Shown one piece after another: positions 1,131 to 56,240 of a stretch of DNA of 64,000 bases (positions within the stretch are counted from its first letter, which is position 1; each line of letters starts with the position of its first letter). Under the pieces are notes generated by a model. It saw nothing but the letters and a program-made list of their open reading frames with translations. It was not told the origin of the DNA and did not search any database. The DNA is from Sabellastarte sp. h YS-2021 (Eukaryota; Annelida; Polychaeta; Sabellida; Sabellidae), in NCBI GenBank assembly GCA_964017235.1, contig OZ024936.1, forward strand, positions 37,470,040 to 37,534,039, in the 5' to 3' direction. A program made the position numbers and the translations under genes.

Positions 1131-1261
1131 CTAGAGGATCGCTCGCAAAAAAAAAAGATAATGTTTTTGCATAGCAAAAACAAAGCGTCCCGAAAAGGAT
1201 ATAAAGGTGAGTGCTAAAGTATTAAGAAAATGCTTCGTTTCTAGCCTTATACTGTTGTGGC

Positions 1262-1545
1262 AACCAAAGTAAGCGCAGTCTGCTCTATCTAGCACGGTTT
1301 TCAAGATATAAGCATTTTTGTGTTTTGCAAAAAATAAAAAAATTAAAAATGTCCGCTATATTTGGCGAGACAAAAATATTTTGAAAATTGGCATGGCTAC
1401 TCTGCAGAGATACCCAGCAGGTCTAAAATTTTGTTGAGTTCGCTCCATATAGCACGGTTCTCAAGATATAAGCATTTTTGTGTTTTGCAAAAACTTTGAA
1501 AATTCAAAATGGCCACCATTTTTGGGGAGACAAAAATTTTTGTCA
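1262..1545 (+). repeat. Two diverged units of the 169-bp satellite
   Basis: Two copies of the CTATCTAGCACGGTTTTC / AAGCATTTTTGTGTTTTGC unit that is amplified at 3769-5215. The second passes at about 1545 into a segment that matches the 5' end of HLE family IV. Confidence 0.8.
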
Positions 1546-1649
1546 AAACCACTGCCGCGGTATGTATCTCCCGCCGAGCATTAAAGCAAAAGAAATAGCT
1601 TTTCCGAGATATTCACAATTTTTCATTTTCGTCTGTGAAAGCTCTGCCA

Positions 1650-3768
1650 AAAGTAGGTGAATGAGTTATTTGAGAAAAATTGGCTATCTGCAATACTATT
1701 AAGAGATAATTCACATTTACTCATTTTGAGGTGAATAATTAGCTATGGGTCTGAAACTTCAAGTGAAAGCTCTCCCAAAAGTAGGTGAATGAGTTATTTG
1801 AGAAAAATTGGGTATCTGCAATACTTTTAGAGATAATTCGCATTTACTCATTTTGAGTAGGTGAGTAATTAGCTATGGGTCTGAAACTTCACCAAGTGAA
1901 AGCTCTCCCAAAAGTAGGTGAATGAGTTATTTGAGAAAAATTGGCTATCTGCAATACTTTTAGAGATAATTCACATTTACTCATTTTCAGTAGGTGAGTA
2001 ATTAGCTATGGGTCTGAAACTTCAACAAGTGAAAGCTCTCCCAAAAGTAGGTGAATGAGTTATTTGAGAAAAATTGGCTATCTGCAATACTTTTAGAGAT
2101 AATTCGCATTTACTCATTTTGAGTAGGTGAGTAATTAGCTATGGGTCTGAAACTTCACAGAGTGAAAGCTCTCCCAAAAGTAGGTGAATGAGTTATTTGA
2201 GAAAAATTGGCTATCTGCAATACTTTTAGAGATAATTCGCATTTACTCATTTTGAGTAGGTGAGTAATTAGCTATGGGTCTGAAACTTCAAGTGAAAGCT
2301 CTCCCAAAAGTAGGTGAATGATTAATTTGAGAAAAACTGGCTATCTGCAATACTTTTAGAGATAATTCGCATTTACTCATTTTGAGTAGGTGAGTAATTA
2401 GCTATGGGTCTGAAACTTCACAGAGTGAAAGCTCTCCCAAAAGTAGGTGAATGAGTTATTTGAGAAAAATTGGCTATCTGCAATACTTTTAGAGATAATT
2501 CGCATTTACTCATTTTGAGTAGGTGAGTAATTAGCTATGGGTCTGAAACTTCACCAAGTGAAAGCTCTCCCAAAAGTAGGTGAATGATTAATTTGACAAA
2601 AATTGGCTATCTGCAATACTTTTAGAGATAATTCGCATTTACTCATTTTGAGTAGGCGAGTAATTAGCTATGGGTCTGAAACTTCACCAAGTGAAAGCTC
2701 TCCCAAAAGTAGGTGAATGATTAATTTGAGAAAAATTGGCTATCTGCAATACTTTTAGAGATAATTCGCATTTACTCATTTTGAGTAGGTGAGTAATTAG
2801 CTATGGGTCTGAAACTTCAACAAGTGAAAGCTCTCACAAAAGTAGGTGAATGAGTTATTTGAGAAAAATTGGCTATCTGCAATACTTTTAGAGATAATTC
2901 GCATTTACTCATTTTGAGTAGGTGAGTAATTAGCTATGGGTCTGAAACTTCACAGAGTGAAAGCTCTCCCAAAAGTAGGTGAATGAGTTATTTGAGAAAA
3001 ATTGGCTATCTGCAATACTTTTAGAGATAATTCGCATTTACTCATTTTGAGTAGGTGAGTAATTAGCTATGGGTCTGAAACTTCACCAAGTGAAAGCTCT
3101 CCCAAAAGTAGGTGAATGATTAATTTGAGAAAAATTGGCTATCTGCAATACTTTTAGAGATAATTCGCATTTACTCATTTTGAGTAGGTGAGTAATTAGC
3201 TATGGGTCTGAAACTTCACCAAGTGAAAGCTCTCCCAAAAGTAGGTGAATGAGTTATTTGAGAAAAATTGGCTATCTGCAATACTTTTAGAGATAATTCG
3301 CATTTACTCATTTTGAGTAGGTGAGTAATTAGCTATGGGTCTGAAACTTCACCAAGTGAAAGCTCTCCCAAAAGTAGGTGAATGATTAATTTGACAAAAA
3401 TTGGCTATCTGCAATACTTTTAGAGATAATTCGCATTTACTCATTTTGAGTAGGTGAGTAATTAGCTATGGGTCTGAAACTTCACAGAGTGAAAGCTCTC
3501 CCAAAAGTAGGTGAATGAGTTATTTGAGAAAAATTGGCTATCTGCAATACTTTTAGAGATAATTCGCATTTACTCATTTTCAGTAGGTGAGTAATTAGCT
3601 ATGGGTCTGAAACTTCACCAAGTGAAAGCTCTGCCAAAAGTAGGTGAATGAGTTATTTGAGAAAAATTGGCTATCTGCAATACTTTTAGAGATAATTCGC
3701 ATTTACTCATTTTGAGTAGGTGAGTAATTAGCTATGGGTCTGAAACTTCACCAAGTGAAAGCTCTTTG
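1650..3768 (+). repeat. 133-bp satellite array, about 16 units
   Basis: GTAGGTGAATGA recurs every 128-134 bp from 1653 to 3638. Two start variants alternate irregularly (GAGTTATTTGAG and GATTAATTTGAG), as do linker variants (CACAGAG, CACCAAG, CAACAAG, short CAAG). I could not fit a simple higher-order repeat. The same family recurs at 13860-14660, and a longer diverged version at 14880-15900, 20520-21260 and 48420-48760. Confidence 0.95.
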
Positions 3769-5215
3769 GGATAGCTGCTCTGCAGAGATACCCTGAAGAT
3801 AAAAAATTTCGTGGAAATCGCTCTATGTAGCATGGTTTTCCAAATATTAGCATTTTTGTGTTTTGCAATTTTGCGAAAAATTCGAAAATTCAAAATGGCC
3901 GCCATTTTTGGCAAGACAAAATTTTTTTGAAAATTGGCATGGCTACTCTGCAGAGATACCCTGTGGGTCAAAAATTTCGTCGAAATCGCTCTATCTAGCA
4001 CGGTTTTCGAGATATAAGCATTTTTATGTTTTGCAATTTTTGCGAAAAATTCGAAAATTCAAAATGGCCGCCATTTTTGGCGAGACAAAATTTTTTTCAA
4101 AATTGGCATGGCTACTCTGCAGAGATACCCTTTGGGTCAAAAATTTCGTCGAAATCGCTCTATCTAGCACGGTTTTCGAGATATAAGCATTTTTGTGTTT
4201 TGCAATTTTTGCGAAAAATTCGAAAATTCAAAATGGCCGCCATTTTTGGCGAGACAAAATTTTTTTCAAAATTGGGATAACTACTCTGCAGAGATACCCT
4301 TTGGGTCAAAAATTTCGTCGAAATCGCTCTATCTAGCACGGTTTTCGAGATATAAGCATTTTTGTGTTTTGCAATTTTGCGAAAAATTCGAAAATTCAAA
4401 ATGGCCGCCATTTTTGGCGAGACAAAATTTTTTTGAAAATTGGCATGGCTACTCTGCAGAGATACCCTGTGGGTCAAAAATTTCGTCGAAATCGCTCTAT
4501 CTAGCACGGTTTTCGAGATATAAGCATTTTTATGTTTTGCAATTTTTGCGAAAAATTCGAAAATTCAAAATGGCCGCCATTTTTGGCGAGACAAAATTTT
4601 TTTGAAAATTGGCATGGCTACTCTGCAGAGATACCCTGTGGGTCAAAAATTTCGTCGAAATCACTCTATCTAGCACGGTTTTCGAGATATAAGCATTTTT
4701 GTGTTTTGCAATTTTTGCGAAAAATTCGAAAATTCAAAATGGCCGCCATTTTTGGCGAGACAAAATTTTTTTCAAAATTGGGATAACTACTCTGCAGAGA
4801 TACCCTTTGGGTCAAAAATTTCGTCGAAATCGCTCTATCTAGCAGGGTTTTCGAGATATAAGCATTTTTGTGTTTTGCAATTTTTGCGAAAATTTCGAAA
4901 ATTCAAAATGGCCGCCATTTTTGGCGAGACCAAAATTTTTTGAAAATTGGGAAAAGTACTCCGCAGAGATATCCTGCGGGTCAAAAATTTTGTCGAAATT
5001 GCTCTATCTAGCACGGTTTTTGAGATATAAGCATTTTTGTCTTTTGCAATTTTTGCGAAAATTTCGAAAATTCAAAATGGCCGCCATTTTGGGCGAGACA
5101 AAAATTTTTTGAAAATTGGGAAAACTACTCCGCAGAGATACCCTGCGGGTCAAAAATTTCGCCGAAATCGCTCTATCTAGCACGGTTTTCGAGATATAAA
5201 CATTTTTGTGTTTTC
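3769..5215 (+). repeat. 169-bp satellite array, about 8.5 units
   Basis: Units of 169 bp (some 168) run from GCTACTCTGCAGAGATACCC through CTATCTAGCACGGTTTTCGA to AAAATGGCCGCCATTTTTGG. Because 169 is not a multiple of 3 and stops are rare, long overlapping open frames arise on both strands. They are artefacts of the repeat. Each unit contains one AAAATGGCCGCCATTTT block, which resembles a YY1 site. Confidence 0.95.
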
Positions 5216-5619
5216 CTTATTTGGAAAATTCGTAATGATTAATTAATCATTAATTACTCGGCCATTTCTTGACCAATCAATGCCAAAATCTAATGATTTC
5301 CAGATTTTAATAGAATGAATGTATTTGCCAAGTTTCAGGTGAATTGATAAAATTCCTTTCAAGTTATCATCCGGACAAGCTTCCCCATCGAAAAAAGACA
5401 TTTTTGGTCATGTGACCTCTCTGATTGGTTGAAATGTCACTGCAGCATATTCAAAAAAATTCCCCAAGGCTACTGCCTAAACCTGCCAAATTTGAAAAGA
5501 ATCCGCCTAACGGTTACAGAGTTATAAGGAAAACAAAATGCGGAGCCGGCGGAGCCGGCGGAGCCGGCGGAGCCTGAAGCTCTCCCATACACAAACAAGC
5601 GTCCCTTGCGGGACGCTTA
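5216..5619 (+). repeat. HLE II-a 3' end with 9-bp minisatellite and terminal hairpin
   Basis: A single-copy tail leads to four or so GGAGCCGGC units (about 5541-5575) and then a perfect hairpin, arms AAGCGTCCC and GGGACGCTT around a TTGC loop, at the element's right border. Confidence 0.8.
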
Positions 5620-6190
5620 ATGACATCAAACACTAAAAATGTATGATTAACTGAGAGGAAAGGCAGGCTTTATCACTTGTGCTACCTTTAGTGGGAATAG
5701 TTTAGTGCTTCAGATATGATTTCTTATGCTTGACAAAATAGAATGTCCTTGTGGGTTAGCAAGTTTGACATCTGATGATAGGCTGTCACCTCTGTGTAGG
5801 TATGACTCCCCAAAATGACAATGCAGAGTACCTTTCATAATATGACCCTGGCTGTTGCTGTTGCATGAGACATAAAAATCACAACTTTGACCTTTGACAA
5901 AATTAAATCCACATAATAAAGAAGTCCATATTTAAATATCTCTAACTCTATATCATTTTATTGTTACAGTATATTATTTCTATCATATTTATTACAATAA
6001 GTTTGACTTTTTTAAATATCTGAAGAACATGAACACCTGTTCAGATCCACAATCTTGCACAAACTCTGTTCAAAATATTTTTTTGTTTTATTGAAGCTAG
6101 CAATATAATATCTATACCAATTTAATAGCAACATCAATAGGTTATGTTCCTTTTGATTTGAGGAAGATTGGTGTAATATTATCCAAGATA
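5620..6190 (+). repeat. 665-bp repeat, end of copy 2 and partial copy 3
   Basis: TGACATCAAACACTAAA resumes exactly where copy 1 continues at 462. Copy 3 begins at 5825 and fades by about 6190. No gene is visible. Confidence 0.85.
5755..5905 (+). mobile_element. Decayed tRNA-derived SINE, second copy
   Basis: Parallel copy of the decayed SINE at 594-745, carried along in the tandem unit. It reads GGCTGTCACCTCTGTG and ACCCTGGCTGTTG, slightly closer to the younger SINE at 14022. Confidence 0.65.
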
Positions 6191-7581: not shown

Positions 7582-8494
7582 AAATAGCATCAGAGATGCT
7601 CGTACCCCACAGCCTGGGGGCATAGTTTTCAACACCATGAGATATAGAAGTAGTGAAACAGTACACAGATTGGGATACTTTCAGAGCAGTGTCAGTGTCC
7701 AAATAATGTTTAAGTTCAGAAAATAACATCTAAGAGAAAGAAAGTGCATGTAAATATTAAGTATTAAAACAAGGCAATTCAGTAAACTACAAGTTATGAA
7801 GCTTGAAGACTTCTCCCATTTTGATATTCATTTGTATTTTTGAATTATGGTTTGAATGTTTTGAATATTACCTATACATACAAATGTGGTAATACATGCT
7901 TTTATGTGGAGTTGGGGCCAAAACCTGTGGCTCACTTGAAGCAATACCATCTGTTACAATGGGAAGTTGCAAAAGTAAAACAGTTAATGAATTCTAATAT
8001 GACTTTACCAGTGCTTAATCTACATCAAAAGACACCCAAAAGTGCAACAAACCAAGATTCAAGTAAAAAGATATAAGAGAGATATAAGAAAGATAAAATA
8101 GCATCAGATATCCCCGTAGAGAGATAAAATAGCATCAGATATGCAAGATCAAAGGTCAAATCCATGTCACACCATGACGTTGCACACATATAACCTCCGA
8201 CCAATGTCCCTACCAAATATCAACTTCCTACACCTTATGGTTTCCGAAATATAGCCCGGACAAGATTTTCAAATTCAAGGTCACTACAGTAAGGTCAAAG
8301 GTCAAATCAAGGTCACACCATGATGTTGCACACCTACACCCCCTAACCAATGTCCCTACCACGTATCAACTTCCTACACCTTACGGTTTCCGAGATACAG
8401 GCTGGACAACCTTCTTCCCGCAGCCCGCCCATCCATCCGGACACCATGAGTGAAAACAATACCCCGACAGCCCTTAAGGGCTGTGGGGTAAAAA
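7582..8494 (+). mobile_element. HLE family I, copy a
   Basis: Starts AAATAGCATCAGAGATGCTC followed by GTACCCCACAGCC. It ends with a hairpin whose arms are ACCCCGACAGCCC and GGGCTGTGGGGT (about 8461-8489) followed by AAAA. The 5' motif thus matches one arm of the 3' hairpin. Internally it has about two GGTCA-rich satellite units (8208-8450) and two degenerate copies of its own 5' end at about 8097-8140. It is non-coding. Copies b (9521) and c (54656) share both ends. Confidence 0.75.
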
Positions 8495-9520: not shown

Positions 9521-11186
9521 AAAATAGCATCAGAGATGCCCGTACCCCATAGCCTGGGGAAATAATTTTCAACAGCATGAGATATAGAAGTAGTGAAACA
9601 GTACAAAGATCGGGATACTTTCAGAGCAGTGTCAGTCATATAAAGGTAAAATAATGTTTAAGTAGAGAAAATAATATCTAAGAGAAAGAAAATGTACATA
9701 AAGATTAAGTATTAAAATAAGACAATTCAATAGCTAGATGTCAGCCTTAATCAGTAAATTAAAAATTGTGAAGTTGTAAAATTTATTAACTGATGAAAAG
9801 CTGTCAATGAAAATAGCACAATTCTGTAAAAGTACAGTTGAACCTCAATTATCCGGCCCTCTATAATCCGAATCCCTGGATTAACCGAACCGAAATCTTG
9901 TCTCCCTGCTGGCAGTACGTATAATGCATGGTCTAGCATGAGCGATATTAAGGGATTTTACACATTCTCGGAAACCATTAATTCTAGTGCTTTATAAAAC
10001 ATACCATCCACAAAAAATGCCTAACTTCTTTGATCTTTATTGCATTGTTTCAACAGGGGAGGGGTTAATTCATTTACAGAACCCCACTACACAACTTCTT
10101 TGATAATGCGCCTATCACTGATTGTGTGTTCGATTGCTTTTTTAAATTTATAATCTCCCGGAGTAGATTCATTCATAGACTGATGTGTATTAAAAGAAAA
10201 ACATCAACAATGCATTGCCAACCGAACATACTTGAAGACTTGTATTATTAGGTCGTTGTAAAAAATAATCTCCCAGAGTTTTTCACTTGACAAAATGCAT
10301 GACGAAGTTTATCTAAAAATGAAATGTCAACACTGCATATACAAAATGAACACACCCAGCTGAAGTCTGCGTAATATTTTAAATAATAATGCATGAAAAT
10401 ATACGTAGATATAGAGCAAATAAGTCAAAATTAGAAGGTTAGTTATACCGGTATTATATTACACATATTTATTAATCTACTTCACCAATGACCACCCACG
10501 TCAATATTTAGTGCATTAAAGCAATTTTTCTTCAACTATCGCCCACTTGGTAACCCATAGATCGCGAATTTCTTTTTCCTTCATCTATTCGAACCCCTCG
10601 ATTATCCGATCCGATTGTATATCTCCCATTGGGTTTGGATAATTGAGGTTCTACTGTACATATAATAATCAATTGCAGCAATCCATATATCTTTGACATC
10701 ACATTTCTCAAATATTGCAGGGGCACACACTTTGTCAGAGTCAAAGTTAAAGGTCACACCATGATGCACACCTACACCCCCTAACCAATGTCCCTACCAA
10801 GTGTCAATCTTCTACACCTTATGGAATCTAAGAACTCATGGTCACTATGACAAGGTCAAACGTTAAATAAAGATCACAACATGATTTTGCACACCAACAA
10901 CCCTTAAGCAATGTACTACCAAGTATCAACTTTCTACACCTTGCGGTTTCCAAGATACAGCCCAGATAAGATTTTTAAATTCAAAGTCACTACGGCAAGG
11001 TCAAAGGGCAAATCAAGGTCACACGATGACGTTGCACATCTACAGCCCCTAACCAATGTCCCCACCATGTATCAACCTCCTACACCTTACGGCTTCTGAG
11101 ATACAGCCCAGACAAACTTTTCCACCCCCAATACGGACACCATGGGTGAAACAATACCCCGAAAACTGTTCAGGGCTGTGGGGTAA
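9521..11186 (+). mobile_element. HLE family I, copy b
   Basis: Same 5' end as copy a (AAATAGCATCAGAGATGCCC, then GTACCCCATAGCC). The 3' end GGGCTGTGGGGTAAAA is at about 11171-11186, but its hairpin is partly decayed. It holds GGTCA-type satellite units at about 10735-11110 and is interrupted by the MITE at 9835-10656. Non-coding. Confidence 0.7.
9835..10656. mobile_element. pogo/Tigger-like MITE
   Basis: An 822-bp non-coding element with terminal inverted repeats. The left end is CAGTTGAACCTCAATTATCC; the right end, read on the minus strand, is CAGTAGAACCTCAATTATCC. TA dinucleotides lie at both borders (9833-9834 and 10657-10658), the expected Tc1/mariner target duplication. CAGTTGAACCTC-type ends are characteristic of the pogo/Tigger group. 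No transposase is present. It sits inside HLE I-b and so is younger. Confidence 0.85.
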
Positions 11187-12895: not shown

Positions 12896-13139
12896 CTAGA
12901 GATTGTGTCTCGACGCAGTGTATCCCCAGATGGGACATGGTTGAAGCATGACATACAGAGTATTATGGTTGACACAAATATACCCCTGTGGGGAGGGGGC
13001 CTAAGTGTTTATGGGAGCAACTTATACTGACACTAAGTAAACAAAATGTTTGCTTAATGAAAGATACAAATGTAACTAGACATAGCGCATCGGAGAACCG
13101 ATCCAAATTGTATCCACCAGAAAGAAAACTCACCAATCA

Positions 13140-14660: not shown

Positions 14661-15962
14661 TAATTTAGACATAAAGCCTACCAATAGAATACTGTGGTGC
14701 ACCCTCTAATATACCTTGCAAACTTGAGAAGGCTAGCTATAATACTTTTTTTCGTTAGAGCGGTAATGGTGAAATCTCTCTACACACTGCAGCTATCCAG
14801 TGGATACAATGATTTACTCAACAGTGAGAACCTGAAAGTAGATATTGGTAAGCTATGCCATGACATAGAGGTCTGCAATTTCACTCTGTTATAGCTGACC
14901 AAAAATTATGTGAATAACATATTTAAACAAAATACTGTAAATGTAATAGTTTTCACGTTATAACTGATTTACTCAACAGTGATAACCTCAAAGTAGCTAT
15001 TACTCAGCTATGCAATGAGCTACATGTCTGAATTTTTTCTATGTTATAGCTGACCCAAAATTAGGTGAACAACATATTTAAGCAAAATACTGTAAATGCA
15101 ATAGTTTTCAAGTTACAACTGATTTACTCAATAGTGAGAACCTGAAAATAGCTATTGCTCAGCTATGCCATGAGCTATAAGTCTGTAATTTCACGATGTT
15201 ATAGCTGACCCAAAAGTAGGTGAACAACATATTTTAACAAAATACTCCAAATGCAATATTTTTCAAGTTACAAGTCATTTACTCAACAGTCAGTACCTGA
15301 AAATAGCTATTGCTCAGTTGTGCCATGAGCTACAGGTCTGTAATTTCACTATGTTATAGCTGACCCAAAAGTAGCTGAATAACATATTTACACAAATTTC
15401 TGTAAATGCAATAGTTTTCCAATTACAACTGATTTACTCAACAGTGTGAACTTCAAAGTACCTATTACTCAGCTATGCAATGAGCCACAGGTCTGGAACT
15501 TCACTATGTTATAGCTGACTCCGAAATAGGTGAATAACATATTGAAACAAAATACTCTAAATGTAATACTTTTGAAGTTATAAGTAATTTACTCAACAGT
15601 GATAACCTAAAAGTAGCTATTACTCAGCTATGCCATGGGCTACAGGTCTGAAATTTTACTATGTTATAGCTGACCCAAAAGTAGCTGAATAACATATTTA
15701 TACAAAATTGTGTAAATGCAATAGTTTTCAAGTTACAAGTGATTTTACTCATGATGGAAGTTACTGAAAAGCCCAAAAGTAGCTATTACTCACTTAGCTA
15801 TTGAGACAGACACCCAAGTTACTCACTATGTTGTAGCTATGAAAAAAGTAGCTGAATAACATATTTTAACAAAATGCTCTAAATGCAACACTTTTCAAGT
15901 TATAAGTGATTTAGTGCAGGATTTCATGACTTTTAATGCTTTTGAGACTTTTTTGTCTACCA
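14661..15962 (+). repeat. Long-form satellite (about 155 bp), about 8 units
   Basis: Units share AACATATTT, AATGCAATAGTTTTCAAGTT, GATTTACTCAACAGTG and CTATTACTCAGCTATG. They match the 133-bp satellite in the same order of landmarks, so the two are diverged members of one satellite superfamily. Confidence 0.8.
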
Positions 15963-16321
15963 CAGGCCTAATTTAGACATAAAGCCTACCAAAAAGATAG
16001 GGTGGCGAGTCCTCTAGCATACCAAGCCACCTGCCAAATATGAAAGAAATCTGGAAAGAAATGTGGATTGTAGGTCGCTAACAAGCAATATTCCACATTT
16101 TAGACATTTTTGTCTACCACAGGCCTAATTTAGACATAAAGCCTACCAAAAAGATAGGGTGGCGAGTCCTCTACCATATCAAGCCACCTGCCAAATATGA
16201 AAGAAATCCGGAAAGAAATGTGGACTGTAGGTCGCTAACAAGAAATCTCTGCGGACGCGGACGAGGGCGCGGACGACAACGATGATGAATCCATAGTATC
16301 CCCGCTTCGCGTCGGGGATAC

Positions 16322-35451: not shown

Positions 35452-35599
35452 CTAGAGGAATACTTTTGCTAACAAAAGCGAAGCGTCCCTTAAAGTTTAA
35501 AATGCTTTGTGGTTTTAATAAGCATGCTGTAAAGCTAAGAATGCACAAAGCTGTACCGTATGCTTTCCCAATACATCTTAATACATTATGAAGCTATAA

Positions 35600-36578: not shown

Positions 36579-36581
36579 AAA

Positions 36582-36950: not shown

Positions 36951-37339
36951 CTGAATAACTACCACTTGGTAGGCGGGTAAGCAGCTAGGGACTTATGTGA
37001 ACTCATAACAACAAATTTAACAGGCCCATTTGACCTAGGGTCAGAGAACCCTGAAAGGTCAGGGTCGGCACTAACTCACCGGTTAACCGGGAGCCTACCG
37101 ACGTTGCCCCCCCCCTTTTTCTTTCCTTTCAGAATTGGTCTGAATTGGAAAGATAGAGAGAGAGAGAGGGGCTGAGTTCAGTCCCAGAAGAAATAAACTT
37201 CCCAAAGGAAGCAAGTCACAGTTTTGTTTTGTTTTTTTTTTTTTTTTTTTGAACATATATGTACATTCAACATATTTACATTATGTACATATCTAACATA
37301 TTTACAATATGTACATATTTACATATATACAACATCCCC

Positions 37340-40300: not shown

Positions 40301-40387
40301 GGGACATTTGTGACAATTTTTACAAAACTCAAGTGATCTACACAGGAAACATCTTTCACATGGTTTATTTCTCTGATAGATTGACAA
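37340..40387 (-). CDS. DIRS A2 tyrosine recombinase frame (with N-terminal Cys-rich block)
   Basis: One open frame of about 1015 codons. Its last 370 or so (37340 to about 38450) form the recombinase. It has an N-terminal core-binding region (RSTKSVYEAKWTIFTKWCL, TIDGYRSAIADKLGN), a catalytic Arg in SGKRRSEIHAW (about 37935-37950), His-x-x-Arg in KAHDVRAF (about 37540-37552), HW in CHWKSHNTF and the probable nucleophile Tyr in FTQFYLKD (37430-37432). All RHRY residues are present. The enzyme would insert the circular cDNA. The upstream 2 kb of the frame overlaps RT in another frame. It contains the conserved Cys-rich block near 40280-40480 but little else recognisable. No ATG lies near the domain start, so expression by frameshift, splicing or re-initiation is likely. 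Confidence 0.88.
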   Translation of the reverse strand: MSIYQRNKPCERCFLCRSLEFCKNCHKCPNCCHKSSCRGKTSAVLGEVGNSGCESKSYQNTERGLHPSLPVQTQPNQVTNGHQQICKPPKTVPPFGGTDSANKQECSGTGNKSDLPRVLQPAIFGSQTQQPVETYLGPEHFEHLFKHRVVQDGDPRDNKNLPTGRGVGHIHRFQRRLLPHTNSQSVKEVHAFSHSGPILPVQGPTLWSFHSTHGVHSGGQRGQAHGLTTGYKNPPVPRRLAGEGLYPPHLSPAYSNPGHTLSGTRVAGEQGKVRTGTQTGLQLRRLPVRPERGQGQTNRRTLAGLDRQDQINDVGSGLSGPEIHVPHRSPHSNRKTNPLRATPHETHTVAKQLEGPRVTGKGDPGPQVPPPSSKVVAGGKQCATRSTITPSKTCSADLYRRIKRRVGRSLGRPYCKGNLVPSRKQVAHKPLRAKSSFSSSKGVSNPGLQQGCVDSYRQHNSGCLYQQRRGDEVGVTVCPTVENPVLVHQTAGNPQGTSHPRPAERDSRQAIQTWPDHSNRVVTSSSSIPSCMRKVAPAKSGPVCHQVQQQTTSVCVTGARPPGLGSGCTQSLLGGPGPIRLPTGSHLGQSGGEAPGLPLQQNNPDCPRVAQHALVLGPGSNVKPDPTLSAQHTQPCVSAIQPGPSQEPVESEPTCLAPRASAIKEQGFSEAVAARIEAPQRRSTKSVYEAKWTIFTKWCLSNQVDFRAPPLKAIADFLLYLFQDKKLQPGTIDGYRSAIADKLGNSTINVSKDENLTRLLDSFHRDRPKGRRGIPSWNLSLVLHQLTKAPFEPLKESSLKHLTFKTVFLLALGSGKRRSEIHAWLHKNIRHQSDWSKVSLYPSPSFLSKNQLAKEGPDSVAPVVIPALAPSLDRSLKGDRSLCPVRALRYYLDRTADLRQNKELVFVSFKKGFDKDISPATISSWIKQTVVLCYELSDQEALTLHQVKAHDVRAFAASKAFQSGISLDQILSACHWKSHNTFTQFYLKDVAWADSELFHLGPVVAAQQVHHQAQK

Positions 40388-40518
40388 TAAACGGGATTTA
40401 CACCTTTCTTTTGCGGTGACCCGCTGGCAAAAGGAACACTTGCAACAAAAGAGTTTACATGTGGAAAAACAGTCTCGCTCTTGCTTGTCACTGGTGGTGG
40501 TGGGTTCAAGCCCTCCAT
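38254..40518 (-). CDS. DIRS A2 reverse transcriptase/RNase H/methyltransferase-like protein
   Basis: 754 codons from the first ATG after gag (40518, MEGLNPPPPV), 58 bases beyond the gag stop. The frame itself is open up to 40896. Order: PVGARLQQFWEKW at the RT N-end; RT with LFLVPKPNNRWRPILDLS, IDFKDAYFHIPIHS, LPFGLSTAP and catalytic QYLDDWL (about 39670-39690); RNase H with IFTDASNEGWGA, LELKAVFLAL, ATDNTTVVAY and RARHIPGRLNVIAD; then VDLFATRFNN, DALSLSWEDLDPYAFPP and IAPGWPNMPWFWDL. That last segment aligns by eye to phage Dam-type N6-adenine methyltransferases, with AFPP where NPPY is expected. It makes cDNA from the element RNA. The final 200 bp overlap the recombinase domain. Confidence 0.9.
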   Translation of the reverse strand: MEGLNPPPPVTSKSETVFPHVNSFVASVPFASGSPQKKGVNPVYCQSIREINHVKDVSCVDHLSFVKIVTNVPTVVTNLPVGARLQQFWEKWETLGASPKVIRILREGYTLPFRFRPNLTRSPMVISKYVNPQRQSLLLEALTQLTNKNAVEPVTNQTSLGFYNRLFLVPKPNNRWRPILDLSTLNTFLNTESFKMETPETIRTSLQAGEWVTSIDFKDAYFHIPIHSQSRKYMRFHIQGQSYQFKALPFGLSTAPMEFTVVAKEVKLMALRQGIRIHQYLDDWLVRASTLHTCLQHTQTLVTLCQELGWLVNKEKSELAPKQVFNFVGYQFDLKEGKVRPTEERWQALTDKIRSMMSDPVCPVRKFMSLIGLLTATEKQIHLGRLHMRPIQWQNNWRVPESLEKVIPVPKSLHPHLRWWLEESNVLLGQPLHPLKHALQIFTDASNEGWGAHLDDHTARGTWSLPESKLHINHLELKAVFLALKEFRTLVCNKAVLIATDNTTVVAYINKEGGMKSGSLCALLWKILSWCTRQQVTLRARHIPGRLNVIADKLSRLGQTIQTEWSLHPAVFQAVCARWHQPKVDLFATRFNNKLLQFVSPVPDPQAWAVDALSLSWEDLDPYAFPPAAILGKVVEKLQDYPCNRIILIAPGWPNMPWFWDLVAMSSQIPLCLPSIPNLVSQPFNQVLHRNRSNLNLHAWLLEPQQSRSKASLRQWQHELRLLKEDQPNLSMRQSGPFLQSGASVIRWTSGHHL
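40200..40510 (-). other. Cys-rich zinc-binding-like block in alternative frame
   Basis: In the recombinase frame, overlapping the RT N-terminus. It has paired cysteines (FCCKCSFC), then CERCFLCRSLEFCKNCHKCP followed by NCC and SSCRGK. The DIRS A1 counterpart keeps almost every Cys (CERCFLCRSLEFCKSCHKCP). In both elements it lies directly before the PVGARL start of RT in the other frame. Better conservation here than in the RT frame implies this frame is the translated one. A frame change or splice at the CRGK/VGARL point would fuse it to RT. It probably binds zinc and nucleic acid. Confidence 0.6.
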
Positions 40519-40576
40519 CTTGTTGGATACATTTACAGAGTTCACCAATCCGACCACATTTGAAAAACAGTGATTG

Positions 40577-42610
40577 TCATTTATGCTTTTTAAATCCCCT
40601 GGCCGGCTTCTGGCTGAAGTTTGAGGCTTTACCACCACCTTTCTGAGCAGTTTGCCGGTCTCTAATCTGCTTCCATGCCGGAGTAGTGGGCTTCCGGTCC
40701 GGCTGGTGAGGGGTTCGATTGGAGGTGACGTATGGATGAAAACGTCCAGGTTTCCTTGGTGTGGTACCAGCAGAACGCCTCTCTTCACTACGTAAGATCT
40801 CCTCTTCAGCTTTGACCAGTAAGTTGTCCGGGAAGAGTGATAGTTGGTGAACTGGAGACGTACGTAAGGCAGACAAGGTGTTCGGTTTAATCCCACCTCT
40901 TATGAACTCTAAATAACTGTCCCGACGGGCCAGGGTGAGATTAGCCATGCTGATAAAGACTCCCTCTGATAAATCCTGCATGGTACGCTGCATAGCCTGT
41001 GAAATTGACCGGTTAAACGTAACCAGATACTCCAGTTCTTCAACAGCTTGTTGTTGTTTCTCAGCACTTTTGCCCTTGGAGGAATCGAACCTGAGGGACT
41101 TTAACTGGGTGACCATGGAGTCCTGTACTTTGGTGAGGCATCTAGATAGGCCAGCAGCGTGATTACACATCACTGATTGTTCTCTGAAGGACCTCTCCCA
41201 CCTTCTAAGGGTGTCCTGGCTGAAGGTCCGGGAAGCTGGAGCAGAAGGTAAACTGCGCCTTGCAACTCTAGAAAACATACTGTTAAGCTTTGCCGGTTCT
41301 GGAGACCAGTCACCAACAGCCTGGGTAGACGTATCCTTCTTAACAGCTTGCATGTCGTACCACTTTGAAGTACGGGGTGTCTTGACAAATTGATCACGCA
41401 GCAGACCACTGGTTTCTGTATTCCTGGAAGGATAACCTTCAGCAATAGTTACATTTAGTTTCTCCAGCTTTTTACAAAGCCATTCATCCACCGGCAATTT
41501 TACTGACACTTTACCGGTAGTCTTCACTCTAGAACCGGCAAAGGGATTGTCATCCATAGATGCAGCTGAGGTGTCATAATCCGGGATTTGATGCCAGCCC
41601 ATGAAACTCTCAAGGTTGCCCCCTCTCAAGGTTTCCCGGTAATTGGCATCTTCAGAGAGGTCCTGGTCAGTGTTAGTTTCCGGTACATCACCCTGGTAGT
41701 GAACACTAGCCGGTGAAGCCGGTTCCGCATCCAACTCAGCCTCACTGTCAGATTCCCTAGCAACCTCAGAATTCTGGCCAATGGGAGGCGACTGGTTAGA
41801 CAACGTAGTTTCATAACCGGAAGGCAGAACCTCAGGACCCGCACCGGGAGCCTGTGGAGGCTGGGTGGCAGTCCCTGCACCGGGAACCAGTAAAGGTTGG
41901 GTGGCAACAGTCTCAGAGGTACCGGGGCCCTGAACAGGGTGGGTAGCACTCTCAGGCACTTCCTTCATAGCTTGTGTACCGGGAACCCCCAGAGGAGGTT
42001 GGGTAGCCGTCAACTGCGTAGCAACGTCACCAGTGCCCTCAGCAAACATAACACTAGTAGAAGCACCCGGATCAAAGAAGGGGTGTTCTCTGGGCACCAC
42101 AGAAGCAGAATTCACCGGTCTCACCGGAACAGCAAAAGACTGGTTAATCAGCATAGCTTCCAGACGGGAAAATCTCTCACTCCACTTGTCATCAAGGGAC
42201 TTGAGGTCGTCTGAAGTGGGCTTACTGCTGTGCTTCCGTTTACTAGACCTTGGGGAGCCATCAGAACGCTTCTTCTTCTTCTGCTTGGGTGTAGAATCAA
42301 CAGGAGACTGCGTCCCTGAATTGACTGGACCCAGCAGTGAAACCTCAGACGGATCAACAAGCTTGGAAGACGTACTTGTTAATTCTTCAGATTTCTTCTG
42401 GCTAGAGCGTTCTTTCCGTTCCTTGTAGGTGGGGGTAGCCAACTGGTGGATCTGAGCAGGCGTAAACGCCTTACAGATACTACAATCCAACTTCTTCACA
42501 CAGGGGTCATCTCCCACCCCCTTGTCACGACAACGCGCGCATTTCTGGTGGTTGTCGAAAAGGGCCATAACGTGCCCACAAGAACCTCGCTTCTGTCCAG
42601 GAGACGACAT
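40577..42610 (-). CDS. DIRS A2 gag-like ORF1
   Basis: 677 codons from ATG at 42610 (MSSPGQKRGSCGHV); the same start exists in A1 and, as MSSHQ, in B. Upstream in-frame codons to 42718 lie in the leader and are unlikely to be used. The N-terminus has CGHVMALF, CARCRDKG and DCSICKAF, a possible zinc-binding fold. A Lys/Ser-rich segment (KQKKKKRSDGSPRSSKRKHS) may be nuclear-targeting. The middle is Pro/Thr/Gln-rich and of low complexity (repeated ATQPxxxPGxG). The C-terminus is helical (RRWERSFREQSVMCNHAAGL, NLTLARRDSYLEFI) and ends in basic residues. Its role is presumably packaging of RNA into particles. Confidence 0.85.
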   Translation of the reverse strand: MSSPGQKRGSCGHVMALFDNHQKCARCRDKGVGDDPCVKKLDCSICKAFTPAQIHQLATPTYKERKERSSQKKSEELTSTSSKLVDPSEVSLLGPVNSGTQSPVDSTPKQKKKKRSDGSPRSSKRKHSSKPTSDDLKSLDDKWSERFSRLEAMLINQSFAVPVRPVNSASVVPREHPFFDPGASTSVMFAEGTGDVATQLTATQPPLGVPGTQAMKEVPESATHPVQGPGTSETVATQPLLVPGAGTATQPPQAPGAGPEVLPSGYETTLSNQSPPIGQNSEVARESDSEAELDAEPASPASVHYQGDVPETNTDQDLSEDANYRETLRGGNLESFMGWHQIPDYDTSAASMDDNPFAGSRVKTTGKVSVKLPVDEWLCKKLEKLNVTIAEGYPSRNTETSGLLRDQFVKTPRTSKWYDMQAVKKDTSTQAVGDWSPEPAKLNSMFSRVARRSLPSAPASRTFSQDTLRRWERSFREQSVMCNHAAGLSRCLTKVQDSMVTQLKSLRFDSSKGKSAEKQQQAVEELEYLVTFNRSISQAMQRTMQDLSEGVFISMANLTLARRDSYLEFIRGGIKPNTLSALRTSPVHQLSLFPDNLLVKAEEEILRSEERRSAGTTPRKPGRFHPYVTSNRTPHQPDRKPTTPAWKQIRDRQTAQKGGGKASNFSQKPARGFKKHK

Positions 42611-42734
42611 AATGATCAGTAACGTTGTAGAAATACTCCGTACTAATAAAAAACAAGAAACTTGGAAGAGTTTGTTGTAAAACTTCAAAAACGTATCTCT
42701 GAAGAAAATCTTCTGCACACTCTTTTCGCGCCAA

Positions 42735-42925
42735 ACGAAAAAGATGCTATGACGTCAAGAGGTAAACAGGAAATGAAGTACGATGCGCCACCTGGCGAAT
42801 GCACACTCTGTGACCGGTCCTGCCGGTAGTATATACAGGACGTCTTTTTCTGGCGTTTGGCGGGACCGGTCGCGCCGACCGGTAAAGCAATTGTCCATTG
42901 GATAGGATGTATTAACGCAATAAAA
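42735..42925 (-). promoter_or_regulatory. DIRS A2 high ITR with CRE octamer and palindrome
   Basis: Inverse of the low ITR. The CRE consensus TGACGTCA (42750-42757) is 140 bp upstream of the gag ATG. The palindrome ACCGGTCGGCGCGACCGGT is repeated here in inverse orientation (about 42864-42884). A CCAAT box lies in CCTATCCAATGG on the minus strand. The promoter role is inferred from position and motifs. Confidence 0.6.
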
Positions 42926-44000
42926 ACTCAAAATCAGCTATTTTATGACCCCAGTTTGACCCATAAAGGGGGGTCGGGGGATAAAACTGACCGGCTATTT
43001 AGATTCTCCACATATGCTTTCCCAATACCTCTTAATACATTCTGAAGCTATAAAAGCAAAGACAAAGGAGATATAAGGCAAAAACTCCATAGCAGCTATT
43101 TATGACCCCAGTTTGGCCAATAAGGGGGGGGGGGGGGGGGGGGGGGTCAGGGGGTAAAACTGACCGGCTATTTAGACTCTCCACATATTCTTTCTCAATA
43201 CCTCTTAATACATTTTGAATGTATAAAAGCAACAATAAAGGAGATATAAGGCAAAACTCCAAAGCAACTATTTTATGACCCCAGTTTGACCCATAAGGGG
43301 GGTTGGGGGATAAAACTGACCGGCTATTTAGACTCTCCATATATGCTTTCCCAATACCTCTTAATACATTCTGAAGCTATAAAAGCAACAATAAAGGAGA
43401 TATAAGGAAGAAAACTCAAAATCAGCTATTTTATGACCCCAGTTTGAACCATAAGGGGGGGGGGCCAGAGGGTAAAACTGACCGGCTATTTAGACTCTCC
43501 ACATATGCTTTCCCAATACCTCTTAATATATTCTGAAGCTATAAAATCAACAATAAAGGAGATAAAGGCAAAAACTCAAAATCGGCTATTTTATGACCCC
43601 AGTTTGACCCATAAGGGGGGGTCGGGGGATAAAACTGACCGGCTATTTAGATTCTCCACATATGCTTTCCCAATACCTCTTGATACATTCTGAAGCTATA
43701 AAAGCAAAGACGAAGGAGATATAAGGCAAAAACTCCAAAGCAGCTATTTATGACCCCAGTTTGGCCAATAAGGGGGGGGTCGGGGGTAAAACTGACCGGC
43801 TATTTAGGCTCTCCATATATGCTTTCCCAATACCTCTTAATACATTCTGAAACTATAAAAGCAACAATAAAGGAGATATAAGGTAAAAACTCAAAATCAG
43901 TTATTTTATGACCCCAGTTTGACCCATAAGGGGGGGCCATGGGGTAAAACTGACCGGCTATTTAGACTCTCCACATATGGTTTCCTATTACCTCCCAGTA
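42926..44000 (+). repeat. 158-bp satellite array, right part
   Basis: GACCCCAGTTTG recurs at 42947, 43104, 43277, 43435, 43595, 43752 and 43910. It continues the array that DIRS A2 split. One G-run is 23 long (43124-43146). Confidence 0.93.
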
Positions 44001-44454
44001 CATTTTATAGCTCTAAATGCAATAAGAAGATAATAGGGGGGTTGGCCTAAATTTAAGGCTTTCAGATTGGAAGGTGTCAGAAAATCACTCATAAATGAGA
44101 CATTTTTCAAGGGATTGCTGCCAAAATCTAATCAGCTCGAGTTTTCGATAGTATGAACACGTGTGTCAAATTATAAGGCTCTGTAGCAAGTAGTTTTTCC
44201 TGAACTGCGATGAAGGGGGGGGGGGGGGGGGGGGGGGGTGTACTTCAAAAAAATAGTTTTTGATCATGTGACCTTCATAAAGGTCAAGGTCAAATTTAAG
44301 CATGCAGAAAAATTTTCCCACGCCTAAGGTATATAACTGCCAAATATGGTTTAAAATCTTCTAATAATAAGGGAGATATTCAAGGGAGACCATAATGCGG
44401 TGGCGGCGAGGCAACTGAGGTGAAAACAAATAAGCGCCCTTTCAGGGACGCTTA
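44001..44454 (+). repeat. HLE II-b 3' segment with 24-base G-run
   Basis: Single-copy tail with an uninterrupted run of 24 G at 44215-44238, then the terminal hairpin at about 44431-44454. No gene. Confidence 0.7.
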
Positions 44455-46214: not shown

Positions 46215-46219
46215 GTAAC

Positions 46220-46639: not shown

Positions 46640-48960
46640 AGCAAGACCACTTCCGCGGTATGTATCTCCCGCCGAGCATTACAGGGGAAGAAATACCTTT
46701 TCCGAGATATTCACAATTTTTCATTTTCCACTAAAATCCAAGATGGCGGCCAAAAGTGGCAAAAACTGAAATTTTTCCCCCAGGCACAGAATACTGTTGT
46801 ACTACCCTGTGGGTCAAAAATTCTCTGAAAATTGCTCTATCTCTTACCATGTCGAAGATATTTTCAATGTTTTATTTTCCGCTAAAATCGAAGATGTCCA
46901 CGAAAAAGTGGCAAAAATTGAAAATTTTTCCCCTTTCCGCAGGATACTCTTGTACCACCCTGCAGGTCATAAATTCATTTGAAATCGCTCTATCTCTTAC
47001 AATTTTTGAGATATTCACACTTTTTCATTTTCCGCAAAATCCAAGATGGATGCCAAAACTGGCGAAAATTGAAATTTTTACCCTTTACATAGGACACTCT
47101 TGTACTACCCTGTGGATCAAGAATTCGCTTGAAATCGCCCTATCTCTTACGGTTTTCGACATATTCACACTTTTTAATTTTCCGCAAAAATCCAAGATGG
47201 CCGCCAAAAGTGGCGAAAACTGAATTTTTCCCCCTATCCATAGCCTACTCTTGTACTACCCTGTGGGTCAAAAATTCGTTTGAAATCGCTCTATCTCTTA
47301 CGGTTTTCGAGATATTCACACTTTTTCATTTTCCGCTAAAATCCAAGATGGACGCCAAAAGTGGTGAAAATTGAAATTTTTACCCTTTACATAGGACACT
47401 CTTGTACTACCCTGTGGGTCAAGAATTCGCTTGAAACCGACCTATCTCTTACGGTTTTCGAGATATTCACACTTTTTCATTTTCTGCAAACATCCAAGAT
47501 GGCCCGCCAAAAGTGGCGAAAATTGAAATTTGAAATTGAAATTTTTTCCCCTTATATGTATAGGATACACTTGTACTACCCTGTGGGTCAAACATTCGCT
47601 CGAAATCGCCCTATCTCTTACAGTTTTCGAGATATTCACACTTTTTCATTTTCCGATAAAATCCAAGATGGCCGCAAAAAAGGGGCGAAAATTGAAATTT
47701 TTCCCCTTTGCATAGGATACTCTTGTACTACCCTGGGGTCAAAAATTCACTCGAAATCGCTCTCTCGTACGGTTTTCGAGAAATTCACACTTTTTCATTT
47801 TCCGCTAAAATCCAAGATGGCCACCAAAAGTGGTGAACATTGAAATTTTTCCCCTTTGCATAAAATACTCTTTTCTCCTTTGTATAGGATATTCTTGTAC
47901 TACCCCGCGGGTCAAGAGCTCACTCGAAATCGCTCTATCTCTTACGGTTTCCGAGATATTCACACTTTTCCATTTTCTACTAAAATCCAAGATGGCCGCC
48001 AAAAGTGGCGAAAATTGCAATTTTCCCCTTTGCATAGGATGCTCTTGTACTACCCTACGGGTCAAAATTTTGCTTGAAATCGCTCCATCTCTTACAGTTT
48101 TCGAGATATTCACACTTTTTCATTTTCCGCTAAAATCCAAGATGGCCACCAAAAGTGGCGAAAATTGAAATTTTTCCCCTTTGCATAGGATGCTCTTGTA
48201 CTACCCTGTGGGTCAAAATTTTGCTTGAAATCGCTCCATCTCTTACAGTTTTCGAGATATTCACACTTTTTCATTTTCCGCTAAAATCCAAGATGGCCGT
48301 AGCAAAAATTGAAATTTGTCCCCTTTGCATAGGATGCTCTTGTACTACCCTGTGGGTCAAAAATTCGCTCGAAATTGCTCTATCTCTTACGGTTTTCGAG
48401 ATATTTGTAAATTTTCACTAAAAGTAGCAATAAAGTAGCCATTACTCACTTGTACATTGAGCAACAGTTGTGAAACTTAAATATGTTACAGTTCACAAAA
48501 AAGTAGATGAACAACATATTTGAGAGAAATTGTGTAGCTACAATAGTTTTGAAGACATAAGCCATTTACTCATTATGGATATCATTAAAAATTGACAAAG
48601 TAGCTATTACTCACTTAGCTATGGAGATACACTTCCAAACTACTGACCATGTTGTAGCTGTGGAGAAAGTAGCTGAACAACATATTGGAACAAAATACTC
48701 TAAATGCAATAGTTTGAGAGTTATAAGTCATATAATTATATTAGGTAAAAGTGCTATTACTCACTCAAAAGTAGGCCAAAGTTCACCAAACCCAAAAAAT
48801 ACTGAACAGCGTAAAAATTCATTAGGACAAGTAATTTACCAAAAATGTGTAACTGTAGTAGTTTCAGAGAAAACTGAGTGACACACGCACGCACACACGC
48901 ACGCACGCACATACATTGTGTAAATTATAATCTCCCACCGGCGAGCCGGGCGGGAGATAA
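46640..48960 (+). mobile_element. HLE family IV
   Basis: The 5' region reads ACCACTTCCGCGGTATGTAT then CTCCCGCCGAGC. The 3' end is a hairpin with arms ATCTCCCACCGG and CCGGGCGGGAGAT (48930-48958), so the 5' motif ATCTCCCGCC again matches the hairpin. Inside are about 10 satellite units of 110-180 bp (46690-48410) with CTCTATCTCTTACGGTTTTC and CCAAGATGGCCGCCAAAAGT. Next come about three long-form satellite units (48420-48760), then the GGACAAGTAATTTACC module and an ACGC microsatellite (48881-48912). It is non-coding; open frames are repeat artefacts. Confidence 0.72.
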
Positions 48961-52543: not shown

Positions 52544-52589
52544 AACCAGTAAATAAAACGAAATTAAGAAGACTTCTGTGCATTCAAAA

Positions 52590-53150: not shown

Positions 53151-54082
53151 ATGGCAAGTTTTTTCGGTTTAAACCCTCCAAGCAAAATCCAGATATCCAG
53201 TGATGGAAATAATGAAGCCACATGGACATGTTTCAAAGAAGATTTCAGTTATTTCATGCTAGCTGCTGGTTTCAACTCAAAAACAGATGAAGAAAAAATT
53301 GCACTGCTGATTAATTTGGGAGGGGCAGAACTCAAGGACATATATAATGGATTAACATGGGCTGCTCCAACCAAGGATGTCCCGGATGAATCAAAAGTAT
53401 ACACCAGGGTCACATGGATGCATATTTTAATGTAAAAAAGAACCAGCTGAGTGCCAGGAGAACATTCAGTACCATGTCCCAGAGATCTACAGAAAGCTTG
53501 GAACAATTCATCACTAGGATACGAACAACTGTCAAAAGTTGTGACTTTGGCAATGAAGAAGAGAAAACTCAAATGAGAGATCGACTAATCTTCGGATGTG
53601 CAGATATTGCACTGCATGAGACATTCTATAGGGAGAAATATGAAAACTTGACTTTTGATAATGCTGTAGAAATTTGTCAGATATACCTATCAGCAAGGTG
53701 ACAATTATCTACATTCCATGGCAGTTCCATGAAGGAACATGAAAGTGTACAAGCTGTAAAAAGTAAACCAAAACCAGCTCGTCAACGGTTGAAAAGTGGT
53801 GCTGACCAATCATCTGTGAAACAAAACACAAGAGGATCTGGTCAAAGCAGTTATAAAGATTGTAATTTTTGTGGAAAAAAGCATCAATGGGGTAAGCAAC
53901 ATTGCCCTGCCTATGGTAAAACGTGCAACAGATGTAGACGAAATAACCACTTTGCAATGAAATGTCAGTCTACCAGCACAAAGCGATATCCCAAACAAAA
54001 AGTGCATAATGTTAAAGAAACCCAAGAGAGTGATTCTGAAGCTGAATTTGTTATGACAATTGCACAGGACAAAAGGATGTAG
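53151..54082 (+). pseudogene. gypsy relic, gag with two zinc knuckles
   Basis: Starts MASFFGLNPPSKIQISSDGN. The frame shifts near 53420 (to MDAYFNVKKNQLSARRTF). A stop follows LSAR at 53699, and the frame resumes. The nucleocapsid part has CNFCGKKHQWGKQHC then CPAYGKTCNRC ... HFAMKC, a paired CCHC-like arrangement typical of one gypsy lineage (the CPAYGKTC signature). It would bind retroelement RNA. Confidence 0.82.
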
Positions 54083-54655
54083 AGCGATACAGTAGCAGCT
54101 CAAATGGAAATGGTGCACAGTGGCAAACGTGTCAAATTCCAAATTGATACCGGAGCTACAATAAACGCCATTCCGAGGTATCTCATACCAAATGTAAAGC
54201 TGCAAGAGTCGAACACAAAGTTAAAATCATGGTGTTCAACTGAGCTAAAAGTGAAAAGGAGTTGCAGATTAATACTCAGAAACCCAAAGAATAGGAGAAA
54301 ATATAGTGTTGAGTTCTTCGTGGTAGATGGCCATGTGACACCAGTCCTGGGTAAAAAAGCCTGTGAAAGGATGGGATTGGTTCGTGTAAATTATGGACAC
54401 ATACAAACTGTGTTTGAATCTCACATTTTAGTAGAATTCAAGGAGGTTTTCAATGATGAGATTGGGACTTTACCTGGTGATGTTCATCTTACAATAGATT
54501 CAGAGGCAAGCCCAGTTGCAATACCATCTTGCCGAGTTCCAGTTAGTGTTAAAAAAAATGTAGACAAAAAGTTGAGGCAAATGGAACTTCAGGATGTGAT
54601 TACCAAAGTTCAACAACCAACTAAATGGGTTTCAAGAATGGTAGCAAATGTAAAA
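54083..54655 (+). pseudogene. gypsy relic, protease and first part of RT
   Basis: The aspartic protease signature is FQIDTGATINAIP near residue 12 of the frame beginning 54104, with VLGKKACERMGL further on. The linker to RT has DVHLTIDSEASPVAIPSCRV and LRQMELQDVITKV then TKWVSRMVAN. The sequence stops there. The next bases are HLE I-c, so the RT palm with its YxDD motif is absent. Confidence 0.82.
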
Positions 54656-56240
54656 AATAGCATCAGAGATGCCCGTACCCCACAGCCTAGGGAAATATTT
54701 TCAACACCATGAGATATAGAAGTACTGTACCAGTACAAACTTCAGGATACTTTCAGAGCACTGTAAGTTATATAAAGGTCCAAACAATGTTTAAATGGAG
54801 AAATAATGTTTAAAAGAAAGATAATGCGTATAAAGATGAAGTATTAAAACAAGATAATTCAATAACAAGATGACAGCATTAATCAGTAAACTAAAATTCA
54901 ACACTCTTTATCTACATCTGCATGGCCGAATTATGGTTTAGATGGTTTGAATATTACCATGCATACAGAATTGGCAATACATTTAATGAATGCTTATTGT
55001 GGTGTTGGAGCAAAATCTGTGGCTCACTTGATGAAATTCTATCTCTTACAATGGGAAGTTATGAAAGTAAAATTCTTAATAAATTCTAATATGACTTTTG
55101 CTTAATCTGCATCAAAAGACAGACCCAAAGGTCCATGAAGATTTTAAAGGTCAAGGTCACTACAACAAGGTAAAAGGTCAAATTAAGGTCTCACCATGAT
55201 AATACACACCTATAGCCCCTAACCAATGTCCCTACCAAATATCAACTTCCTACACCTTACGGTTTCCGAGATATAGCCCTGACAAGATTTTATAGGTCAA
55301 GATCACTATGGCAAGGTCAAAGGTCAAATCAAGGTCACACCATGATGCTGCACACCTACACCCCCTAACCAATGTCTCTACCAAATATCAACTTCCTACA
55401 CCTCACAGTTTCCGAGATATAGCCCGGACAAGATTTTATAGGTCAAGGTCACTACGGCAAGGTCAACTCCTGGTCAGACCATGACGTTGCACACCTACAC
55501 AGCCTAACCAATGTCCCTACCAAATATCAACTTCCTACACCTTACGGTTTCCGAGATATAGCCCGGACAAGATTTTATAGGTCAAGGTCACTATGGCAAG
55601 GTCAAAGGTCAAATCAAGGTCAGACAGTGACGTTGCGCACCTACACCCCCTAACCAATATCCCTACCAAGTATCAACTTCCTACACCTTACGGTTTCCGA
55701 GATATAGCCCGGACAACATTTTATAGGTCAAGGTCACTACAGCAAGGTCAAAGGTCAAATCAAGGTCAGACCATGACGCTGCACACCTACACCCCCTAAC
55801 CAATATCCCCACCAAGTATCAACTTCCTACACCTTACGGTTTCCGAGATATAGCCCGGACAAGATTTTATAGGTCAAGGTCACTGCGGCAAGGTCAAAGG
55901 TCAAATTAAGGTCAGACCATGATGTTGCACACCTACAACTCCTAACTAATGTCCCTGCCAAGTATCAACTTCCTACACCTTATGGTTGCCGAGATATAGC
56001 CCGGACAAGATTTTCAAACTCAAGGTCACTACGGCAAGGTCAAAGGTCAAATCAAGGTCAGACCATGACGTTGCACACCTACACCCCCCAACCAATGTCC
56101 CTGCCAAGTATGAACTTCTTACACCTTACGGTTTCTGAGATACAGCCCGGACAAACTATTTCCCTCCGCCCGACCGCCCATCCAGAACACCATGGGTGAA
56201 AACAATACCCCGACAGCCCTTAAGGGCTGTGGGGTAAAAA
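54656..56240 (+). mobile_element. HLE family I, copy c
   Basis: 5' end AATAGCATCAGAGATGCCCG then TACCCCACAGCC; 3' hairpin arms ACCCCGACAGCCC and GGGCTGTGGGGT followed by AAAA (about 56206-56239). The interior has seven satellite units of about 145 bp (CCAATGTCCCTACC at roughly 55221, 55366, 55507, 55660, 55800, 55946 and 56090), each with AAGGTCAAAGGTCA and TTACGGTTTCCGAGATATAG. This copy has the best hairpin of the family. Confidence 0.82.

Follow-up and report, generated by a model that had tools for sequence, protein, structure and literature searches.

Probable non-autonomous Helentrons carrying satellites in a Sabellastarte genome, and a predicted intact Helentron of the same end design

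Non-autonomous Helentrons (HINEs) with internal satellites are already known from oysters and other animals. In the available part of PMC7492417, Cg_HINE of the Pacific oyster is described as a left subterminal inverted repeat (subTIR), a complementary inverted repeat and a microsatellite, followed by central satellite-like arrays, a right subTIR and a palindrome. We analyzed a 64-kb stretch of contig C14 (hereafter the window) in the genome assembly of Sabellastarte sp. (1.786 Gb, 647 contigs), in which an initial annotation made from the sequence had noticed four element families, I to IV. The motifs that it quoted for these families are real, all of them being present in the window. The order of parts is the same as in Cg_HINE, and in both cases several families occur per genome, some with common repeats, although the genome and the sequences are different. 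According to the same source, the oyster authors were unable to connect any of 10 autonomous elements with the Cg_HINEs, whereas here the short elements of a fifth family, V, share their tail with a predicted intact Helentron.

DINE-1 and HINE-Mo with their Helentron partners, as presented in the available part of PMC4067079, resemble the Sabellastarte elements in their subTIRs, 3′ palindrome, preference for TT, lack of any target modification seen, a partner encoding Rep, helicase and endonuclease, and, in the mite HINEs, palindromic subTIRs. They differ in that long satellite arrays are found in all families of the window and that no partner proteins were found for I to IV. The bivalve pearl elements CvA, CvE and CvG are likewise non-autonomous, carry central repeats of about 160 bp and were later filed as Helentrons; this likeness is drawn from descriptions in parts of other papers. 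An autonomous partner of satellite-carrying bivalve HINEs was not found in the literature searched, a scope outside which subscription papers and Repbase lay. Among mussel genome papers, the available text of PMC9210306 lacks the word Helitron, and that of PMC13015404 lacks both Helitron and Helentron.

Families I, II, III and IV are, with high probability, HINEs that read on the minus strand. On this strand each family runs from TT into a palindromic subTIR (the 5′ end), short GC-rich or simple repeats and satellite arrays, and then into an inverted copy of the subTIR, a second palindrome and a terminal CT-containing end (the 3′ end). The initial annotation had assigned the ends the other way round, since its 3′ hairpin is the 5′ end and its 5′ motif is the 3′ repeat, and it had overlooked the second palindrome beside the motif. 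Its suggestion that these are Helentron-associated elements is borne out by the layout, by insertion into TT with empty sites and by an apparently intact Helentron of the same design in the genome. The 3′ termini on the element strand are CTCTAG|TT in II and III, TCTTG|TT in IV and V, and GATGCTA|TTTT in I. SubTIRs were found at both ends of I and IV across copies, and those of II and III were checked in the window. The family I motif TACCCCACAGCC lies at 7603 and 54676, and the family II motif AAGCGTCCC at 1183 and 35481, the second II hairpin (44432-44453) having AAGCGCCC as its first arm. The main tandem arrays lie between the end motifs, as had been claimed, and have periods of ~126-169 bp. 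The region of III is nested because a 145-bp satellite flanks its hairpin on both sides; thus, the ends at 12896 and 16321 need not belong to the single element that had been proposed.

The 5′ hairpins fold, with a microsatellite adjoining the hairpin in II-a and IV and, as judged by eye, short GC-rich repeats near it in III and I. A second palindrome able to fold is present at the 3′ end in all five families, weakly so in III (-1.6) and IV (-2.4). The copies II-a and II-b have a common subTIR, AAGCGTCCC, and differing second palindromes, GTTTTTGC..GCAAAAAC versus CTTTTG..CAAAAG, both of which pair. Hairpins of a III-like family (ATATCCCC..GGGGATAT) are located at L012:1475-1501 and L047:2752-2778, L numbers designating individual loci of the genome; relative to III, the outermost G-C pair is changed to A-T on both sides. 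The paired changes in the II palindromes and in the III-like outermost pair speak for a kept structure.

The motif was said to be copied as an arm of the hairpin. It does pair with the hairpin, as an inverted repeat of the outer arm rather than as a copy of the inner one. Of 11 distinct copies of family I, ten showed 0/11 mismatches between the motif and the outer arm and the remaining one showed a single mismatch (12 rows were scored, L033 being the I-c copy of the window; L050 and L058 failed the stricter pattern and were left unscored). The corresponding figures in family IV are 0/10 mismatches in three of five copies, and one and two mismatches in the other two. Since family I has an additional base in the inner arm, and 3/5 copies of IV have a mismatch there, the pair that has been kept is apparently that of the motif with the outer arm, the inner arm being seemingly a looser copy.

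These motifs mark element borders, at both ends for I, II and IV and at the hairpin end only for III, and genome copies end where the initial annotation had placed them. Genome-wide, the copies of family I lie in 21 distinct flanks on the left and 31 distinct outward ones on the right. For family II, the left border stands in 13 distinct flanks, and 35 of 40 scored copies end on the right at 5624-5630; the other five, including the window copy, have the flank in common too. A query of 5480-5621 at this right end gave 0 candidates, perhaps as common words were skipped, and a longer query gave the copies. All 40 scored copies from the II left-end query are 100% identical over 270 bases, which indicates that II-a is young. 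Family IV has 28 outward right flanks and, besides the window copy, five left flanks with AA. At the hairpin end of III, 40 of the 41 matches listed for a 142-bp query ending at the hairpin are 99-100% identical.

To describe the target, we counted the two bases beside each end over distinct flanks on the window strand, where AA stands for TT on the element strand; reads from the inner face of a palindrome were recognized by eye. AA was found at 21/21 left ends of I and 13/13 of II. On the right, it was found in 31/42 cases for I, the other 11 being inner-face reads (31/31 outward), in 2/3 for II with one inner-face read, and in 27/35 for IV with seven inner-face reads and one AG (27/28 outward). 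The left end of IV had AA in 5/7, the others being one AG and one end inside the II chimera described below. The III-like right end had it in 4/7 with three inner-face reads, and the V left end in 3/6 nine-base matches, the other three of which are without the rest of the end and were taken as chance.

Empty sites were found for three insertions. The family I copy in L036 interrupts a repeat, empty forms of which are in L012 (81%) and L060 (76%), and the junction has five extra A. The family IV copy in L073 lies within a 155-bp satellite and has two extra bases relative to the satellite copies. In L012, the Rep gene is interrupted inside TTTT by a III-like copy, of which one insertion side was read, and the site is empty in L014, L015 and L017. 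Among the 14 joined rows of family I, L036 was clear, L039 was weak (68%, L060) and no other row crossed the junction well; one of five copies of family IV (L073) yielded an empty site. A duplication of fixed length, which would speak for a cut-and-paste transposase, was not seen: the extra bases vary between sites, those seen at the junction are A/T, and L041 is a possible exception.

We searched the genome with the Helitron_like_N profile and obtained 24 places, while 0/14 control genomes matched. Four of these loci, L012, L014, L015 and L017, are ~99% alike where aligned and represent family V. The open frame of V, assembled from L015 and L093, was read over 1897 aa (2245 were reported by the domain search) and stops at 2131-2133 of L093. 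Its domains are DUF6570, Helitron_like_N, a PIF1 helicase (1.7e-28) and an endonuclease, Exo_endo_phos PF03372 (3.3e-5). The strings PHLHCLFW, YIASYIMKS, VGDFNVN and SDHKG at 682, 864, 1826 and 1888 of the read part are what we take to be Rep and endonuclease motifs. In the PDB, its relatives are Pif1 helicases and, at a weak level, Helraiser (6.3e-10). V is thus predicted to be an intact Helentron with Rep, Pif1 helicase and endonuclease in one protein. Its N-terminal part contains a coding minisatellite (KTKRQRAEYRQ...) in L015. L094, located upstream in the L012 copy, encodes a fragment of a Ulp1-like protease (PF02902, 1.8e-4); no inverted repeat of at least nine bases is common to the V tail and L094, which probably stops short of the V 5′ end.

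The V tail, queried with the 1,370 bases that begin at the stop codon, had 39 other matches, 38 of which end at 692-712 and one at 673, placing the 3′ end of V at GGGGCACCTCTGACCCTCTTG|TT. In all four Rep-bearing copies the tail is found 4-9 kb away from the domain, without change of contig or strand, that of L012 being the match ending at 673. Short elements share about 610-690 bases of tail with intact V at ≥99% identity. A V-type end of 84% identity also occurs in L047 and borders a satellite-carrying stretch in L057, of which about 1.5 kb was read, without Rep in the read part and with the far end outside; the L057 satellites are 72% alike to those of II-a over 476 bases. What appears to be added to the known HINEs is a Helentron gene that is intact and shares its end with satellite-carrying elements of the same genome.

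From the V 3′ repeat AACCCGCC we predicted that the opposite end carries the hairpin GGCGGGTT..AACCCGCC followed by AA. An exact search gave 24 matches and the reversed control 0; with a fixed loop and ≤3 mismatches, 8,242 and 0 were obtained, respectively. Within the 100 places listed (seven exact and 93 one-mismatch, on C1 up to 72.8 Mb), both of the two V 3′ ends have the hairpin on the correct side and strand, with spans of 2.58 and 0.99 kb, which are too short for the Rep gene. In an intact V copy, a predicted 5′ hairpin GGCGGGTTG...CAACCCGCC should adjoin TT. Among the same 100 places, 13 neighbouring same-strand pairs of hairpins are 583-825 bases apart (about 750). Rolling-circle arrays with multiple 5′ ends and a single 3′ end were described by Xiong et al., in the part of PMC12628747 available, and these pairs resemble such arrays; a satellite unit containing the hairpin would look alike.

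In the mechanism that we propose, the Helentron Rep would recognize the palindromic subTIR at the 5′ end and nick there, the helicase would then peel one strand off, and the 3′ subTIR with its palindrome would terminate the reaction, after which the freed single strand would be joined into a TT site. The subTIR would act as the family code telling the protein which DNA to move. The internal satellites may grow because internal repeats are both tolerated and multiplied during rolling-circle copying and recombination. The idea that each family has its own code for one kind of machinery holds as structure, while a tie to a protein was obtained for V and not for I to IV. With several codes side by side in this genome, some of them represented by young and almost identical copies and one tied to an apparently intact Rep/helicase/endonuclease gene, it would become feasible to test how a Helentron Rep selects its DNA and in what way rolling-circle elements disperse satellites.

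The end codes sought for families I to IV were AAGCGTCCC (II), GTATCCCC (III), CCCCACAGCC and ATCTCCCGCC. An autonomous Rep/helicase element with the same termini had been anticipated; V has the same end design, and none was found for I to IV in the 24 Helitron_like_N loci searched. Two candidate partner ends, the III hairpin in L013 and a family I start in L025, were rejected, since they have the look of HINE insertions next to broken Helitron genes. The families are connected by their satellites: the 133-bp array is 92% alike between II-a and the III region over 472 bases, the 155-bp array is 84% alike between the III region and the II relic over 454 bases, and weaker matches connect IV, II and V. 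The family IV module in the II-a copies is a fixed, amplified chimera. It is possible, though rather doubtful, that the Helentron machinery of this genome has diverged into several lineages, each with its own subTIR code and many satellite-carrying parasites; the bypassed family IV end inside II-a would then suggest that a code changes when copying runs past one end to another and carries satellites along.

Several observations weigh against the Helentron reading. The AG before the left end of IV is that of the window copy itself, and most copies with both ends covered have no empty site in the available sequence. Young II-a copies carry six further bases (AATGAC) outside the hairpin, so that the exact 5′ base varies. 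None of the 24 Helitron_like_N loci, each covered over ~1.5 kb on either side of the domain, has a code of I to IV as an end of its own. The endonuclease domain of V scores 24.2 bits against a Pfam cut-off of 24.5. The predicted V hairpin probably belongs to V, to which it is tied only through common 3′ tails and position, and none of its 24 exact matches is near the four Rep-bearing copies. Lastly, the only sign of a target duplication comes from L041, where the 9-base A/T repeat AATAAAAAA is present at each side of the family I copy, and because the ends lie inside A runs, a short duplication of AA to AAAAA is indistinguishable from bases of the element.

This last point would fit cut-and-paste miniature inverted-repeat transposable elements (MITEs) that duplicate a short A/T target and whose hairpins are subterminal structures, as would the inverted repeats near both ends and the A runs on both sides; the bivalve pearl elements were also first called MITEs, according to the part of PMC7492417 available. 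We nevertheless regard MITEs as quite improbable: the ends are asymmetric, with a hairpin at one and a subTIR and another palindrome at the other, the empty sites show only extra A/T at the junction or two extra bases, and an end of the same design closes the predicted intact Rep/helicase/endonuclease element. Canonical Helitrons, which have 5′ TC and 3′ CTRR and insert between A and T, are very improbable. The CTAG that precedes T at the ends of II and III is compatible with CTRR, whereas the terminus is CTTG in IV and V and CTA|TTTT in I, the 5′ end is a palindromic subTIR, and the V protein has a C-terminal endonuclease domain, a mark of Helentrons in the available part of PMC4067079; we rejected this explanation on account of the TT insertion and of the ends of I, IV and V.

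It is hardly credible that the window holds only dispersed satellite arrays of the ordinary kind, in which hairpins arose by chance, and no mobile unit. The window does have an excess of hairpins: seeds with 8-base arms of at least half GC number 33 per strand, compared with a mean of 5.65 and a maximum of 9 in 20 Markov simulations, and those with an arm repeated upstream number 20 and 12 on the two strands, compared with a simulated mean of 1.1. Only 5 of these 32 upstream-copy hairpins are ends of I, II or III, and IV was missed; because the other 27 are not element ends, the excess is not specific, as expected from satellites only. Sharp borders repeated in dozens of unrelated flanks, together with the empty sites, refute this explanation for I, II and IV. 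The features of the window on which the Helentron reading is based are compiled in Table 1. The window gave neither an Rfam family above threshold nor a tRNA gene.

Table 1. Elements and end modules in the 64-kb window (positions on the window; strand as read by the element)
Feature	Position	Strand	Details
Element II-a (probable HINE)	1131..5624	-	3′ end CTCTAG|TT at 1131; second palindrome 1163-1181; 3′ subTIR 1183-1191
Interior of II-a	1635-3765, 3766-5214	-	133-bp and 169-bp arrays, respectively; microsatellite 5540-5574; 5′ palindromic subTIR 5597-5618
Family IV 3′ end module within II-a (chimera)	1545..1600	-	also in 8/8 fetched II-a copies (L001-L008)
Element I-a (probable HINE)	7585..8489	-	palindrome GCATC..GATGC adjoining 3′ subTIR; 5′ palindromic subTIR 8461-8489
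Element I-b (probable HINE, diverged copy)	9525..11184	-	not named in the initial annotation
Family III 3′ end	12896..12927	-	CTCTAG|TT end, palindrome, subTIR GTATCCCC; motif at 12920
Family III 5′ end module	15941..16321	-	palindromic subTIR 16296-16321 adjoining 145-bp satellite array; same end elsewhere in L013
Family II relic	20479..20997	-	subTIR 20510-20518; 155-bp array
Element II-b	35452..44453	-	subTIR as in II-a; different second palindrome 35463-35478; hairpin 44432-44453
Retroelement of about 6.3 kb interrupting II-b	about 36.58-42.93 kb (36578-42932)
Element IV (probable HINE)	46642..48958	-	3′ end TCTTG at 46642, palindrome, subTIR 46664-46673
Interior of IV		-	151-bp array; microsatellite 48881-48910; 5′ palindromic subTIR 48930-48958
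Element I-c (probable HINE)	54658..56235	-	hairpin 56207-56235; within a presumably gypsy-like pol reading frame

Other repeats and mobile elements surround these features. Two large retroelements, at 21551-27925 and 36578-42932, contain long frames on the minus strand as well as inverted repeats close to the ends, and judging from their look are presumably of the DIRS type. The pol frame split by I-c extends over 53124-54712 and 56238-56753. Element II-a is flanked by direct repeats at 1-300, 667-966 and 5823-6122, of which the latter two match the first at 97% and 62%. Two 139-base arms of GAATTCCC/GGGAATTC repeats, located 1.3 kb apart at 49048-49186 and 50509-50647 and 83% complementary, are possibly another hairpin-ended element.

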